Below, piece by piece: positions 46,149 through 51,732 of a DNA stretch of 64,000 bases. The position numbers were made by a program, and so were the translations under genes. The notes below the pieces were generated by a model that searched no databases, was not told the DNA's origin, and saw only the letters and a program-made list of their open reading frames with translations. Within the stretch, counting starts at the first letter, position 1. The number at the start of each line of letters is the position of its first letter. This DNA comes from Candidatus Zixiibacteriota bacterium (GTDB lineage Bacteria > Zixibacteria > MSB-5A5 > GN15 > FEB-12): NCBI GenBank assembly GCA_040756055.1, contig JBFLZR010000008.1:1-64000 (forward strand), given 5' to 3'.

Positions 46149-47087
46149 TTGGGAGATAACAATCAACACATACCAGCAGCCGGTACCCCCGACCATGAGG
46201 CCCTGATGCGCCGTGAGCTCACTTCGGGTCTCAGGGTGACATGGGCGGGGATGGTGATCAATGTGGTGCTGGTGGTGGTCAAGATAGCGGTCGGTGTTAC
46301 AGCCCGCAGCCAGGCTCTTATAGCCGATGGTGTTCATTCGCTGTCCGATTTGTTCAGTGATTTTGTTGTATTGATAGGGCTTAAGCTGGGTCGCCGGGAG
46401 GAAGACGAAAACCATCCGTTTGGTCACGCCCGCATCGAGACTATATCCAGCATGATTGTCGGCGTCACGTTATTTGTCGTCGGTCTGGGCATCGCTTACA
46501 ACGCGGTTACATCTATCTACGAACATCGCGAATCAACGCCGGGACTGCTGGCGATCATTGTGGCTTTCGCGAGTATAGTCCTCAAGGAAGCATTGTACTG
46601 GTACACGGTAAGAGTGGGCCGGAAAATCAGAAGTCTTGCTCTGATTGGCAACGCGTGGCATCATCGTTCCGATGCTTTTACTTCGGTGGCGGTGCTGATT
46701 GGCCTGACGGCCGCTTACTGGAATCCGGATTGGTACCTTGCCGATGCTTATGCGGCGCTGATAGTCACGATTTTCATTCTGAAAGTCGGTATTGACCTGA
46801 CCTGGGGAGCGATGAAGCAGGTTGTGGACACGGCCCCGGATCGCGAGGTCTTGAATCAACTCGTCGAGATTGCGTGCAAAGTAGACGGCGTATGGCAGGT
46901 GCATGATGTGCGGGCGCGCTATTCGGGAAGCCAGATATTCGTCGAGATGCACATAGTAGTTGACCCGGAATTGACCGTGCGAGAGGGGCACCGCATAGCG
47001 GCGACAGTAAAATATTACCTTATCAATGAGATTTCCGACGTTACCAGGGTTATTATTCACGTTGACCCGGAGATCAAGAGCGAATAG
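46149..47087 (+). CDS. Cation diffusion facilitator (Zn/Fe/Mn efflux)
   Basis: This 312-residue transporter has six membrane helices and the two HxxxD metal sites (HSLSD in ADGVHSLSDLFSD, and HRSD in HHRSDAFTS) of the CDF family, plus a C-terminal ferredoxin-like domain (about 220-310). It exports a divalent metal such as zinc or manganese in exchange for protons. The start is uncertain: TTG 46104 would lie inside a perfect hairpin, so TTG 46149 is used, and ATG 46206 is also possible. It follows bshB1, and bacillithiol is known to buffer zinc, which could link the two. Confidence 0.9.
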   Translation: MGDNNQHIPAAGTPDHEALMRRELTSGLRVTWAGMVINVVLVVVKIAVGVTARSQALIADGVHSLSDLFSDFVVLIGLKLGRREEDENHPFGHARIETISSMIVGVTLFVVGLGIAYNAVTSIYEHRESTPGLLAIIVAFASIVLKEALYWYTVRVGRKIRSLALIGNAWHHRSDAFTSVAVLIGLTAAYWNPDWYLADAYAALIVTIFILKVGIDLTWGAMKQVVDTAPDREVLNQLVEIACKVDGVWQVHDVRARYSGSQIFVEMHIVVDPELTVREGHRIAATVKYYLINEISDVTRVIIHVDPEIKSE

Positions 47088-47160
47088 CTCCCTCGATGCA
47101 AAAATGAAGGCCGGAATCCCTGCGTGAATCCCGGCCGAATCTGCTGACGGCAACACCCCA

Positions 47161-47427
47161 CTATTTCACCAGAGTCTCCTGCGCGGATTCCAGACAAGTG
47201 TCAGTCATGATACGATACGGGGCAATGCCGTCCGAGGAGGCATTGTACCGAGTGTCTCTGCCGTCCCACATGACAGAGTGCTCGTCAGCAGTGAAGGGCT
47301 TTTCCAAGGGCGAGAGGCCCTGAGGTGTAGAGTATATCTTGATCATCTTTAAATCACACATTTCCGACGATTTTACAGCAACTTGTTTGCCAGCAGGGGC
47401 CTGCACCTTTTGTTGTTGATATGACAT
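47161..47427 (-). pseudogene. Fossil of a FlgD/T9SS-type C-terminal sorting domain
   Basis: A minus-strand frame of 88 residues (ATG at 47427, stop TAG at 47161) has the pattern of a FlgD-like/T9SS sorting domain. It reads IKIYSTPQG, then VMWDGRD, then SSDGIAPYRI, against the usual 'IYD..G', 'WDGRD..G' and 'SGVYFYRI'. The usual YFYR core has become APYR, no clear ribosome site precedes it, and the N-terminal cargo part is missing. It is most likely a decayed 3' end of a surface-protein gene, cut off by DNA that brought or rearranged the tRNA-Sec side. A short functional protein cannot be excluded. Confidence 0.5.
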
Positions 47428-47563
47428 TGCTTACGGAATCGATCTGGCCCTGCTATGGGAAGGCCGTTGCATAGATAATGATGGTTGTGGAAGTTTTGTG
47501 TGCGCTGATTCACATGGAAAACTCTATTTGCCAGTGAGTTCGGCTGTTCATATATTGAACACG

Positions 47564-47659
47564 GAAGCGGATGTCGTCTGGTGGCGATCCCGGCCTTCAA
47601 AGCCGTGTGGGGGGCAAAGGTCTTGTCCCCGGTGGGTTCGATTCCCACCCCTTCCGCCA
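47564..47659 (+). tRNA. selC: tRNA-Sec (anticodon TCA)
   Basis: This 96-nt gene begins with GGAAGCGG and ends with an encoded CCA. The anticodon loop CTTCAAA (47595-47601) carries TCA at 47597-47599, which reads UGA. A long D stem (GTCGTC/GGCGAT) and a long variable arm (GGGGGGCAAAGGTCTTGTCCCC) are typical of selenocysteine tRNA. The T-arm GTGGG-TTCGATT-CCCAC is intact. The acceptor stem has one C-C mismatch (GGAAGCGG against CCCCTTCC), and the 3' side looks one base short of the usual 8/5 fold. selA and selB lie 14.6 kb downstream. It overlaps no real gene. Confidence 0.92.
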
Positions 47660-47676
47660 AATTCCACGGGGTTAAG

Positions 47677-50600
47677 GTGACAGTTAAGACACTCGCGTTC
47701 GTGAGATCATCGTTTTTGCTGCTTCTTATCGCGGCAGCTCTGCTGGTAATTTTCAAGCCAAGCCTGCCGGCGGGGGGGTTGCTTGTTATAGTTGCGGTTC
47801 TGATGTGGTTAACGGTCAGGTGGCATGCGCGCAAAACAGTTTATCTGTGTCAAAGGTGTCAGCACAAGTTTCAAATTACGCCCTGGACGGATTTCACCAG
47901 CCCTCACACCGGCAACAGCAAGTGGCTGAGGTGTCCGTCATGTGACAATCTCTCGTGGTGCGAGTCCAGTGAGACTAGTAGCGTTGAGGGGGTGCCGAGG
48001 AAACCTGCGCGGTTCGAAGAACTAATGAAACTAGTGGCCGAATTCAACCGGGAAGAGTTGTTTCTTTGGGCGCAGATAACCTCAATTCATCCCAACAATC
48101 AGCGTTATCAGTTGAGGTTGGAGTACCTAACAGCACTCCTCCTGTCTCTGCGCAACGAGACTTATGAGAATCGCCGCCTGCTGCGCGAAGACTTCGTGAG
48201 GGTCGTTGACCTTCTTGACTGTGCAGTAGAACACTTGCTGTCTCCCGTTGAGGATTGGCACCCTTTTGATCAACTAAAGACGATACCATTTGTGCTCAGG
48301 GGAAGACGTTACTATTTCTTCTATGGTATTTATGAAAAGCCTTATGAATTACTTTGTAAATTTCGAGATTTAATATTTAACGAAGGAACAGACGGAAACG
48401 CGGACGCCCTTGAGTATGAATTCCTTGGCAGTCTAAACTTTCAGACATTGTTGATTGAAAAGCTTATTGCGGACGGGGAATCAAAAGAGAAGAGTGAGGC
48501 CGTTTACGTACCCTCGCAAAAGTTCTATGAGTCCTTCAGGGGCGATTTCGAGTCGGCAAGTTACAGCCAGCGGGAAGGAGAGGTGTACGAGCTAACCGAT
48601 TTTGACGTGACGCCAGAGCAAGTGCTTGCGAGGTTGCAGACTTTCTCGCTGTTCGAGAAAACAAAGGTGCGGTTCGATGATAAGTGTTACTTTCTCCTGC
48701 CTCAGGTTCATCTCCAGAGCTTTTATCGCTCAGCTAATGAATTTCTGGCGGGCGACGACGCTGTTGGGCTGCGCGCGGCGGAAAACCTGAGAAAACGTTT
48801 TCACGCTTCGGGGCTTAGGCACTTTGGCTTGAGAGGATACGTTAAGTCAGTCGAGAATCAGAAAGGTCAAAACCTTGCTACGGATGTCGACTTTATCGCG
48901 CATTTCGATGGGAACATACTCTATCTCTTCAAGATTGTGCTTGTCTTGGGAAAGACGGATTGCGTGCATGTAGTTAAGCAAACAGCTGATGAGCTTTATG
49001 GTAGAATCAAGGGTGTAAAACGCGAAGCGACGATCGGTCTAATAAAGTGGCCTGAATCGATTGGAGTGCCACCGGCGGAGCTGGAGATCCACGGTTTTGT
49101 CGTGTATGCCATCGCTGGACTGGATTTTCATGGAACCGTGCCGATGCCGGACGAAACAACTATTCTCAGTTGGGAAGACATCCTGCGTTTATTCGAGGTC
49201 TTTGATTCGCCGGTTTCGCTCCACAAGTTCCTCAGAGATAACAGGAATTTGGAGTTACGGTCGCGGGTAATCGCGATGGATTATCTCGATAAAGTGCCCT
49301 ATTACGTCCAGAACAACTGCTCGTTCCCTGCGACAGGTGTGTCGCCAACGCACGTGCTCTTTCAACCTCATGATTGGCAGGCTTTTTACTATTCGAAAGA
49401 ATATCGTCGGCTCCAAGATCCCGGTATTATCTGGCTGTTGTGCCGCTATGGCGAAAAATTCAATAGGTTTGAGGAAAGTGCCGACGGCATTTACAGCTTC
49501 GTCGATACGGCTTATTTGGACGGCGGTCTTCTCGTCAAGAATACCTTCTGCGAGTGGGCGATAATCGTATATCCTCTGAACGGCTTCTTGATTGATGGCG
49601 ATGTTGTCAGTTCATATTGCAAGTTATTGGGTCCGCTGTATGCGGACTACCTCCAAAGATTGAAGCCGAGCCTCCACGGTTTGTTCGAGGAACGAGGGAA
49701 GGACTACACCAACTTTACCCTAGCACTGTATCCGAAAGAGATTGTGGTGAAAGAAGATGGTTTGAGACACTTTGTTCCTTGTCTTGAGCGACTCAACTCC
49801 GATGACCCAATTTATGTCTGGACCGGCAGCGGCGGCCCAAATGTTTTGAAATCTTGTGTTTTCTACGATCCCGAGAAATTATTAGCTAAGTTCGATTCGC
49901 CCAACAACGATGGCGAGAGATATTGTATTCTGAAGCTCTATGAGAGTTTTCTAAGTCACTTAGCACCTCTTGTGCCAGAAGCCCAAAGGCAGACGCAGTC
50001 TCGCGCTTTTATCAATAAGGAAGTCAGGCAGGCCACTAAGGGCTATTCTTTTGATGCGGTATCTGTCAGGAACCCTAAGCTCAGGGATTACGGTGTACCG
50101 ATAAGTCAGTACAATTCCGAGATCATGATGGTGAATAGATCAATTGCTAAGTTCCTGAGGGAGGAAGGCGTCCCTCCCGGTATATACAAGGGAAAGGGGG
50201 CAGTTGACATCAATGAGCGCATATTTAAGTTTGTCGGACAGACCATTTTACTGGAGTTGAAAGATTATGCAGCGGAAATTCTTCCATTCGCTTATTACCA
50301 GGCAGAATGTGTCGAGGGTCAAAGGGAGACGAACTATATCCAGAGAGATATAGACTCCACTAAACTTGTGCAGTATGACTTCGTTAATGAGTATCTCAAA
50401 AAGCAAGAGGGGATTAGCGAGTTGGCTCTCTGCTCGAAATTGCTTGTGCAGCTCATTGCTAAGATAAGTCCAAGTGGAACTAGAGCGATTACGTCCATTG
50501 GCTGGAACTATTTACAGGCGCTTGCGATTGTCTATTACGACAGTAGCTTGATATTTGACTACATAAATTTCGGCCTTGAGGAACATGTCATAGAGATCAC

Positions 50601-51657
50601 CGATGCCTATGAGCTGCGCGACCATAGGGAGAATTTGGTTTATAGCTACCAGAACTTTATGTTGGCAGAGGCTGACCTACAGGTGCGCGCACGTCGCGGG
50701 CGCAAGGTTTCCCCTATTGATTTAGATCAATTATTCTTGAATTCGATCGATGCCATCAACGCCGCGTTCACGAAGCGCTTTGGATTCCCCCTTGAGCATA
50801 TACCGAGAATTTTGAGACTACTGGGGCAATCGGACATCGAAACCCCAAGAGCTCCATTAACCTATATTTCTAGCGATAAACTAGTCCAGTACCTTTGCAC
50901 CCACGTCAGCGGCCTTGACAGCGCTATTGCCAGAAAAGTCATTGATTTCGTGTCTCTACCTACAGACTCTTCTGAGCCGGCGAACCTACCAATTGTGAGT
51001 CGAATGAATACCAAGAAGGAAAGATTGAATGTGTCACCGTTGATTGTGACCGACGGGAATATCTTATTCGGGAACCAACTTTGTTTGCTTGCGTCCGACC
51101 TGTGGCTCGATAAATTGACGAAGGGGGATTTTCCGTACACCGTTGAGGACAAGGTGATTCAGTCCGAAATTGACAAATACCGAGCATTAATAGAAGCTGA
51201 GCTGGAGAGGAGTGCGATCGAAGTAACACGAGCGGCCCTTGGCCCTACGAATGTTCTTGCTAATCTAAGAAAATACAGGACGTTGGGTGTTGAGCGAGAT
51301 GGCAGTATTGAATGTGGAGAAATAGACATCTTGGCCGCAAATCGCAAGATTAAGCACCTATTCATACTTGAGGTAAAACACAGGCTGAAAAGGAGTTCGC
51401 CTTACGACAATAACATGGAGTTTCAGAAGTTCTTTTATGCTAGTAGGTCCTATTTGTCCAAGCTGCTCAAAAAGGAAAAATTTGTTGAACAGTATAGGGA
51501 GTCGATACTCGAATACTTTCGGGTATCAGACAAGTCTGGTTGGCAGGTCAAGAGGGGGTTTGTGACGCTTTACAATTATCCGTCAGCTCACCACGAGGCC
51601 TTCAAAGCAGAATTCATTGTTCTGCAGGAACTTGACGAGTGGTTGAGAGAACCGTAG
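47677..51657 (+). CDS. Large orphan protein: membrane hairpin, zinc ribbon and two PD-(D/E)XK-like regions
   Basis: This 1,326-residue protein is not recognised as a whole. Residues about 12-26 and 33-47 are two membrane helices. Residues 58-89 form a zinc ribbon (CQRC..CPSC). The large middle has a nuclease-like stretch at about 403-421 (TDVDFIAHFDG..LYLFKIV) in which the catalytic Glu and Lys are replaced by Lys and Val, hence inactive. Near the end, residues 1213-1236 read GEIDILAANRK..LFILEVKHR. That is an intact PD-(D/E)XK set (Asp1217, Glu1232, Lys1234). The start at GTG 47677 avoids the tRNA, as an earlier GTG at 47581 lies inside it. Codon use and base composition look less GC-rich than neighbours by eye. 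It may be a nuclease-based defence or genome-maintenance protein. Confidence 0.75.
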   Translation: MTVKTLAFVRSSFLLLLIAAALLVIFKPSLPAGGLLVIVAVLMWLTVRWHARKTVYLCQRCQHKFQITPWTDFTSPHTGNSKWLRCPSCDNLSWCESSETSSVEGVPRKPARFEELMKLVAEFNREELFLWAQITSIHPNNQRYQLRLEYLTALLLSLRNETYENRRLLREDFVRVVDLLDCAVEHLLSPVEDWHPFDQLKTIPFVLRGRRYYFFYGIYEKPYELLCKFRDLIFNEGTDGNADALEYEFLGSLNFQTLLIEKLIADGESKEKSEAVYVPSQKFYESFRGDFESASYSQREGEVYELTDFDVTPEQVLARLQTFSLFEKTKVRFDDKCYFLLPQVHLQSFYRSANEFLAGDDAVGLRAAENLRKRFHASGLRHFGLRGYVKSVENQKGQNLATDVDFIAHFDGNILYLFKIVLVLGKTDCVHVVKQTADELYGRIKGVKREATIGLIKWPESIGVPPAELEIHGFVVYAIAGLDFHGTVPMPDETTILSWEDILRLFEVFDSPVSLHKFLRDNRNLELRSRVIAMDYLDKVPYYVQNNCSFPATGVSPTHVLFQPHDWQAFYYSKEYRRLQDPGIIWLLCRYGEKFNRFEESADGIYSFVDTAYLDGGLLVKNTFCEWAIIVYPLNGFLIDGDVVSSYCKLLGPLYADYLQRLKPSLHGLFEERGKDYTNFTLALYPKEIVVKEDGLRHFVPCLERLNSDDPIYVWTGSGGPNVLKSCVFYDPEKLLAKFDSPNNDGERYCILKLYESFLSHLAPLVPEAQRQTQSRAFINKEVRQATKGYSFDAVSVRNPKLRDYGVPISQYNSEIMMVNRSIAKFLREEGVPPGIYKGKGAVDINERIFKFVGQTILLELKDYAAEILPFAYYQAECVEGQRETNYIQRDIDSTKLVQYDFVNEYLKKQEGISELALCSKLLVQLIAKISPSGTRAITSIGWNYLQALAIVYYDSSLIFDYINFGLEEHVIEITDAYELRDHRENLVYSYQNFMLAEADLQVRARRGRKVSPIDLDQLFLNSIDAINAAFTKRFGFPLEHIPRILRLLGQSDIETPRAPLTYISSDKLVQYLCTHVSGLDSAIARKVIDFVSLPTDSSEPANLPIVSRMNTKKERLNVSPLIVTDGNILFGNQLCLLASDLWLDKLTKGDFPYTVEDKVIQSEIDKYRALIEAELERSAIEVTRAALGPTNVLANLRKYRTLGVERDGSIECGEIDILAANRKIKHLFILEVKHRLKRSSPYDNNMEFQKFFYASRSYLSKLLKKEKFVEQYRESILEYFRVSDKSGWQVKRGFVTLYNYPSAHHEAFKAEFIVLQELDEWLREP

Positions 51658-51732
51658 AAAGAAATCCCTAGGGGCTTGTATCTGCTGGCACTTTGTAATT
51701 GACATCCGGGCCAAAAGAAGACAGACTTAGGC

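Follow-up and report, generated by a model that had tools for sequence, protein, structure and literature searches.

Introduction

Upx, which reportedly stems from Gao et al. 2020, the source behind Table 1 of PMC10855318, is a single protein of about 1,210-1,270 aa that is rare and is encountered on plasmids and in defence islands. Both PADLOC and PMC10855318 (Table 1) list it among anti-phage systems, and its C-terminus carries a G(D/E)IDxL...ExK site. By sequence, the solved PDB chain 9WUF_A (deposition name 'Restriction endonuclease') belongs to Upx, scoring 1,088 bits against the Upx alignment, and the Upx set reaches 9WUF at full length in a profile search of the PDB. No open paper on the 9WUF structure was found, and no description of how Upx discriminates phage from host DNA was found in the literature.

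A second point of comparison is SNIPE, a membrane-bound GIY-YIG nuclease with DUF4041 that cleaves phage DNA during injection. SNIPE lacking its membrane segment is toxic, and the N-terminal membrane parts of its homologues vary and resemble host inner-membrane proteins (PMC13190303). Here, both systems are compared with a 1,326-aa protein, labelled P0001, from the window, a 64,000-nucleotide stretch of a Candidatus Zixiibacteriota genome. The features of the locus are collected in Table 1.

Table 1. Features at the P0001 locus, in window coordinates.
Feature	Position	Strand	Basis or remarks
Promoter-like site TTGCCA-17-TATATT, 6 nt before tRNA-Sec	47528..47556	+	Only one in 47080-48100; 0.6 expected by chance
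tRNA-Sec (anticodon TCA)	47563..47659	+	ARAGORN; Rfam RF01852, 69.4 bits
Inserted one-gene segment	47660..51689	+	Absent from three same-genus genomes
Gene for P0001, Upx-like nuclease with predicted membrane anchor	47677..51657	+	1326 aa, GTG start, TAG stop, 0 internal stops
Two predicted transmembrane helices, residues ~9-28 and 31-49	47701..47823	+	Kyte-Doolittle windows 1.6-2.3
Zinc ribbon C58xxC61 ... SPH ... C86xxC89 ... WC95	47848..47961	+	Aligned with the order's stand-alone small membrane proteins
Upx-like core, residues 117-1326	48025..51654	+	Aligned end to end with the proteins of L019 and L073; hhalign to Upx set
Residues ~362-480 (covers 403-421), possibly an inactive PD-(D/E)XK-like fold	48760..49116	+	Weak: low-confidence model and Foldseek
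Putative C-terminal PD-(D/E)XK nuclease domain, residues ~1159-1300	51151..51576	+	Invariant residues; weak UPF0102/YraN matches; low-confidence model
Catalytic motif GEIDIL-x(9)-ILEVK, residues 1213-1236	51313..51384	+	Alignment of ten homologues
Conserved recG upstream region, right edge of insert	51690..51732	+	Flank resumes at ACTTTGTAATTGAC, 51690

P0001 is a fusion of two modules

A first-pass annotation of the window had described a 1,326-residue protein directly 3' of tRNA-Sec, with two N-terminal membrane helices and a zinc ribbon at residues 58-89, and each of these elements was recovered. The reading frame is intact and its GTG codon lies 17 nt beyond the end of the tRNA, which is called by both ARAGORN and Rfam; hydrophobic stretches are found at residues ~9-28 and 31-49, and cysteines occupy positions 58, 61, 86 and 89. 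Positive residues on both outer flanks of the helices suggest a hairpin with its N- and C-terminal ends both predicted to be cytoplasmic, and the membrane location of P0001 is likewise a prediction.

P0001 consists of two fused modules, an anchor and ribbon (residues 1 to ~112) and an Upx-like core (~117-1326). When the whole protein was searched against 98 related genomes, almost only residues ~10-110 were matched, in about 15 genomes, and the matching proteins are small and stand-alone, with RWH, CxxC, SPH, RCPxC and WC motifs. These two-helix zinc-ribbon proteins of Zixibacteria share ~35-52% identity with residues 1-112 of P0001, have open frames of ~84-236 aa, in some cases with additional C-terminal helices, and match no Pfam family at threshold. 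None of them is fused to a nuclease, an arrangement seen in P0001 only, and no small protein of this kind was found in the same-genus genomes by the related-genome search. Since residues 1-112 match stand-alone proteins, while the homologous cores begin at ~117 without an anchor, the two parts have been joined by fusion. Examples of the small family, with the motif RWH...CxxC...SPH...RCPxC...WC, lie at L002:1471-1803 and L003:1198-1842 and in L009, L010 and L011.

The core is a divergent relative of Upx

A single match in the 98-genome search spans the core, an anchorless 1,251-aa protein in genome G043 that starts at about residue 117. A profile of P0001 and the G043 protein retrieved a third homologue, of 1,242 aa, from G101 (L073), a Candidatus Zixiibacteriota genome of the same class as the source genome. 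The G101 protein is called Upx by PADLOC (1.7e-39), as are relatives in Deinococcus, Bosea, Sinorhizobium and Salmonella records, and relatives on viral contigs are collinear with it. In alignment with the L019 and L073 proteins, Met117 of P0001 coincides with the start of the stand-alone cores.

Comparison by hhalign of P0001 alone with a six-member Upx alignment, whose members are called Upx by PADLOC at E from 1.6e-29 to 0, gave Prob 97.2 and E 2.8e-11 over residues 511-1305, and the P0001 core together with its nearest relative, L019, gave Prob 99.4 and E 2.1e-21 against the Upx set. These alignments extend over ~740-750 columns, with the catalytic motifs aligned. By sequence comparison the family link is solid: P0001 can be regarded as a full-length, very divergent Upx relative, collinear with Upx over its C-terminal two thirds and sharing the C-terminal site, at an identity (~16-20%) below the reach of the PADLOC model. 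The PADLOC Upx profile PDLC02221 gave no match to P0001 at E up to 10, a search of its own genome with the Upx family did not reach it, and Pfam, NCBIfam and PADLOC scans of the protein returned nothing above threshold. Zero relatives were retrieved by word-based scans of genome contigs and viral contigs with P0001 or by tblastn against plasmids and phages. Because the PADLOC model fails to reach it, P0001 is a distant relative of Upx rather than a member by the PADLOC test, and it widens the family to include a sequence that today's defence-gene profile misses.

In a tree, P0001 and L019 form a separate long-branched clade apart from Upx, although this pairing of two long branches is possibly artefactual. 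An alignment that includes the P0001 C-terminus also reaches 9WUF, but Upx-type proteins make up three of the four rows, so this is not independent evidence; the two-row profile A1 did not reach 9WUF in an hmmsearch against the PDB. The N-terminal helix pair and zinc ribbon distinguish P0001 from the other Upx-like homologues aligned, all of which lack them. No second membrane-anchored Upx was found, and the anchor of P0001, as the sole case found, could be a one-off. A further Upx homologue, of 1,229 aa, is encoded at L089:227-3916 in a same-family genome; the gene just upstream, as read from its translation, specifies a Fic-like protein.

The putative nuclease regions

The catalytic triad is intact. 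The residues to which the first-pass annotation had drawn attention near the C-terminus, Asp1217, Glu1232 and Lys1234, lie at exactly those positions, and together with Gly1214 they are identical in ten of ten aligned homologues. As these residues are among only about ten invariant columns in the whole protein, the motif is not a chance match. Over the same motif, P0001 weakly matches the restriction-endonuclease-like UPF0102/YraN family (E 0.013-0.017, far below curated cut-offs), the members of which, unlike P0001, are small and stand-alone. A structure prediction had been proposed as a check on this region, and the AlphaFold2 model does place an alpha-beta-beta-beta-alpha-beta order at the motif, albeit in a model of low confidence (mean pLDDT 39.6, with values of about 44-69 around the motif) for which Foldseek gave no significant match.

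A degenerate PD-(D/E)XK region had also been described at residues 403-421. While the residues in question are present, they are not conserved as a motif in the homologues, and a catalytic role for them was rejected on this ground. The model of the surrounding region (~362-480) has a strand-strand-strand-helix-strand order at a mean pLDDT of ~34, and Foldseek on it returned mostly cap-snatching endonucleases, whose fold is of the PD-(D/E)XK type, with E values of 0.006-1 or higher, none of them significant. Both models were built from four-row alignments and are of low confidence (mean pLDDT 40 and 34). An inactive nuclease fold at this position is possible and is offered as a lead only; the pairing of an active with an inactive nuclease, as had been envisaged, is tentative: the low-confidence fold model weakly favours it, and the lack of motif conservation at 403-421 speaks against it.

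The gene occupies a site that is empty in close relatives

Three genomes of the same genus (L050-L052) keep the gene order bshA-bshB-cation efflux-tRNA-Sec-recG and carry no large gene between tRNA-Sec and recG, the gap measuring 129, 148 and 80 bp as against about 4.1 kb in the source genome. The sequence ACTTTGTAATTGACwTC, which lies upstream of recG, stands undamaged at 51690, and this block and the junction in the empty relatives together delimit an insert of ~47660-51689 with one gene. Like Upx, P0001 is thus one large protein without obligatory partners, a single gene between tRNA-Sec and recG. The upstream neighbours are bshC, bshA, bshB and a cation-efflux gene, and the downstream neighbours are recG, murB and an SprA-like gene; the names of recG and the cation-efflux gene were checked by Pfam, and the others were read from translations.

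Composition and distribution accord with the empty site. The core has a GC3 of 0.538, as against 0.589-0.644 in nine neighbours, and is AT-richer than its flanks; the GC3 of residues 1-112 is 0.625, a value from 112 codons only. The base-composition and codon scan that had been called for therefore sets the core apart from its neighbours in both GC and GC3. Upx-like genes are patchily distributed, occurring in 4 of 132 genomes of the phylum. Horizontal acquisition of the gene, which the first-pass annotation had proposed, is supported by these observations. Insertion into the tRNA gene by an integrase is not supported: the locus holds neither an integrase nor a repeated tRNA end (att), and att-type tRNA-targeted integration was rejected for want of both. 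The locus also has no defence neighbour.

Some relatives elsewhere lie beside defence genes

The earlier expectation of a defence neighbourhood, which the P0001 locus itself does not bear out, does hold for some relatives of P0001 in other genomes. The copy in Deinococcus QL22 lies right after an Avs2 homologue (E 1.5e-94), and the Bosea copy has a Hachiman-type helicase gene and a gene for a ThsB-like TIR protein in its vicinity. The G101 copy (L073:1177-7636) is beside a tyrosine integrase with a C-terminal zinc ribbon, a Cdc6/Orc1-type AAA ATPase, a DUF6094 methyltransferase and an SNF2-type helicase, an element-like cluster on a Zixibacteria contig, and some Upx relatives are plasmid-borne. 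Guilt by association supports a defence role for the family, and the single-gene defence system that had been suggested for P0001 finds support in both the Upx homology and these neighbours.

Expression

The promoter-like site before tRNA-Sec contains a TATATTG column block that is invariant in the three same-genus relatives. No promoter-like site belonging to the Upx-like gene itself was seen in 47080-48100, and a T-rich stretch that follows tRNA-Sec in the relatives is missing in the source genome. As the sole nearby promoter-like site precedes tRNA-Sec, and as the T-rich stretch is gone, this putative promoter likely drives tRNA-Sec and, via read-through, the nuclease gene.

Proposed mechanism and alternatives

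Taken together, P0001 is probably an Upx-type single-protein anti-phage nuclease that was gained horizontally, is tethered to the membrane by a lineage-specific anchor and cuts DNA as it enters. The hairpin would fix the protein to the inner membrane, leaving the ribbon and core on the cytoplasmic side. Within the core, the extensive N-terminal and central regions may recognise or bind phage DNA as it arrives, or else a protein delivered along with it. The C-terminal domain would then cleave the entering DNA at the entry site, while the tether would keep the nuclease away from the chromosome; the gene itself would be transcribed by read-through from the tRNA-Sec promoter.

Cleavage at the entry site is suggested by analogy with SNIPE. 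SNIPE has an N-terminal transmembrane part, a large middle and a C-terminal nuclease, and the predicted layout of P0001 is the same. However, P0001 has a putative PD-(D/E)XK instead of a GIY-YIG domain, pairs its two helices with a zinc ribbon and is far larger, and neither GIY-YIG nor DUF4041 gave a Pfam match in P0001 at E up to 10. The likeness is one of layout, by analogy, and not of homology. A bolder reading, which we regard as possible but doubtful, is that P0001 represents a second, independent invention of the entry-site strategy, in which an Upx-type nuclease captured an anchor from its own phylum, converged on SNIPE and came to be expressed from the tRNA-Sec promoter. The existence of a natural Upx variant that is predicted to be membrane-tethered suggests that self could be told from non-self by location, as has been shown for SNIPE.

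The membrane tether could instead be incidental. P0001 might be a Upx-like defence nuclease of the cytoplasm, where other Upx proteins presumably work too. Its N-terminal module would then be a chance by-product of the insertion, neutral or stabilising in effect, or a soluble form might be made from the internal start Met117. The homologous cores in L019, L073 and the plasmid copies are indeed anchorless, and Met117 is the very point at which stand-alone homologues start. Yet the residues conserved among the stand-alone proteins are retained in the anchor and ribbon, whereas a fusion that arose by accident should shed them with time, and Met117 is preceded by at best a weak ribosome-binding site, so we consider this reading rather unlikely. 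The target, too, could be other than phage DNA: P0001 might serve in maintenance or against plasmids, as a nuclease for DNA that enters by conjugation or by natural uptake. That Upx relatives occur on plasmids, and that a membrane nuclease would meet all entering DNA, fits such a role; it is nonetheless improbable, given that Upx is catalogued as anti-phage (see Introduction) and that its relatives adjoin anti-phage genes.

The two remaining readings deny P0001 a present defence function and are very improbable. The flanking genes (bshC/bshA/bshB, recG and murB), with no defence gene among them, are the company that a lineage housekeeping protein for membrane-bound DNA or RNA processing might keep. 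However, three same-genus genomes have an empty site, 128 of 132 phylum genomes lack the gene and the composition of the core is foreign; a conserved housekeeping gene, the finding that the first-pass annotation had named as fatal to its proposal, was rejected, as the empty sites already go most of the way to refuting it. If P0001 were instead what is left of a mobile element, decaying or inactive, this would account for the absence of any integrase or other element genes and for the extreme divergence of the protein. Against this, the frame is intact over 4 kb, the catalytic residues are invariant and the zinc ribbon is whole. The anti-phage nuclease at the membrane is therefore preferred.

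The tRNA-Sec and recG neighbourhood across the family

Across the family (L050-L069), tRNA-Sec adjoins recG, lying between it and the bsh/cation-efflux genes, with their relative orientation flipped between genera: the two are on the same strand in the genus of the window and in L059, L060 and L068, and on opposite strands in most other genera. A conserved, secreted-looking protein of ~200 aa ending in EIPEL...WF is encoded near tRNA-Sec in several genera (L059:3096-3695, L060:3005-3595 and L067:7488-8093), and in two of these genera it lies within the gap between tRNA-Sec and recG.
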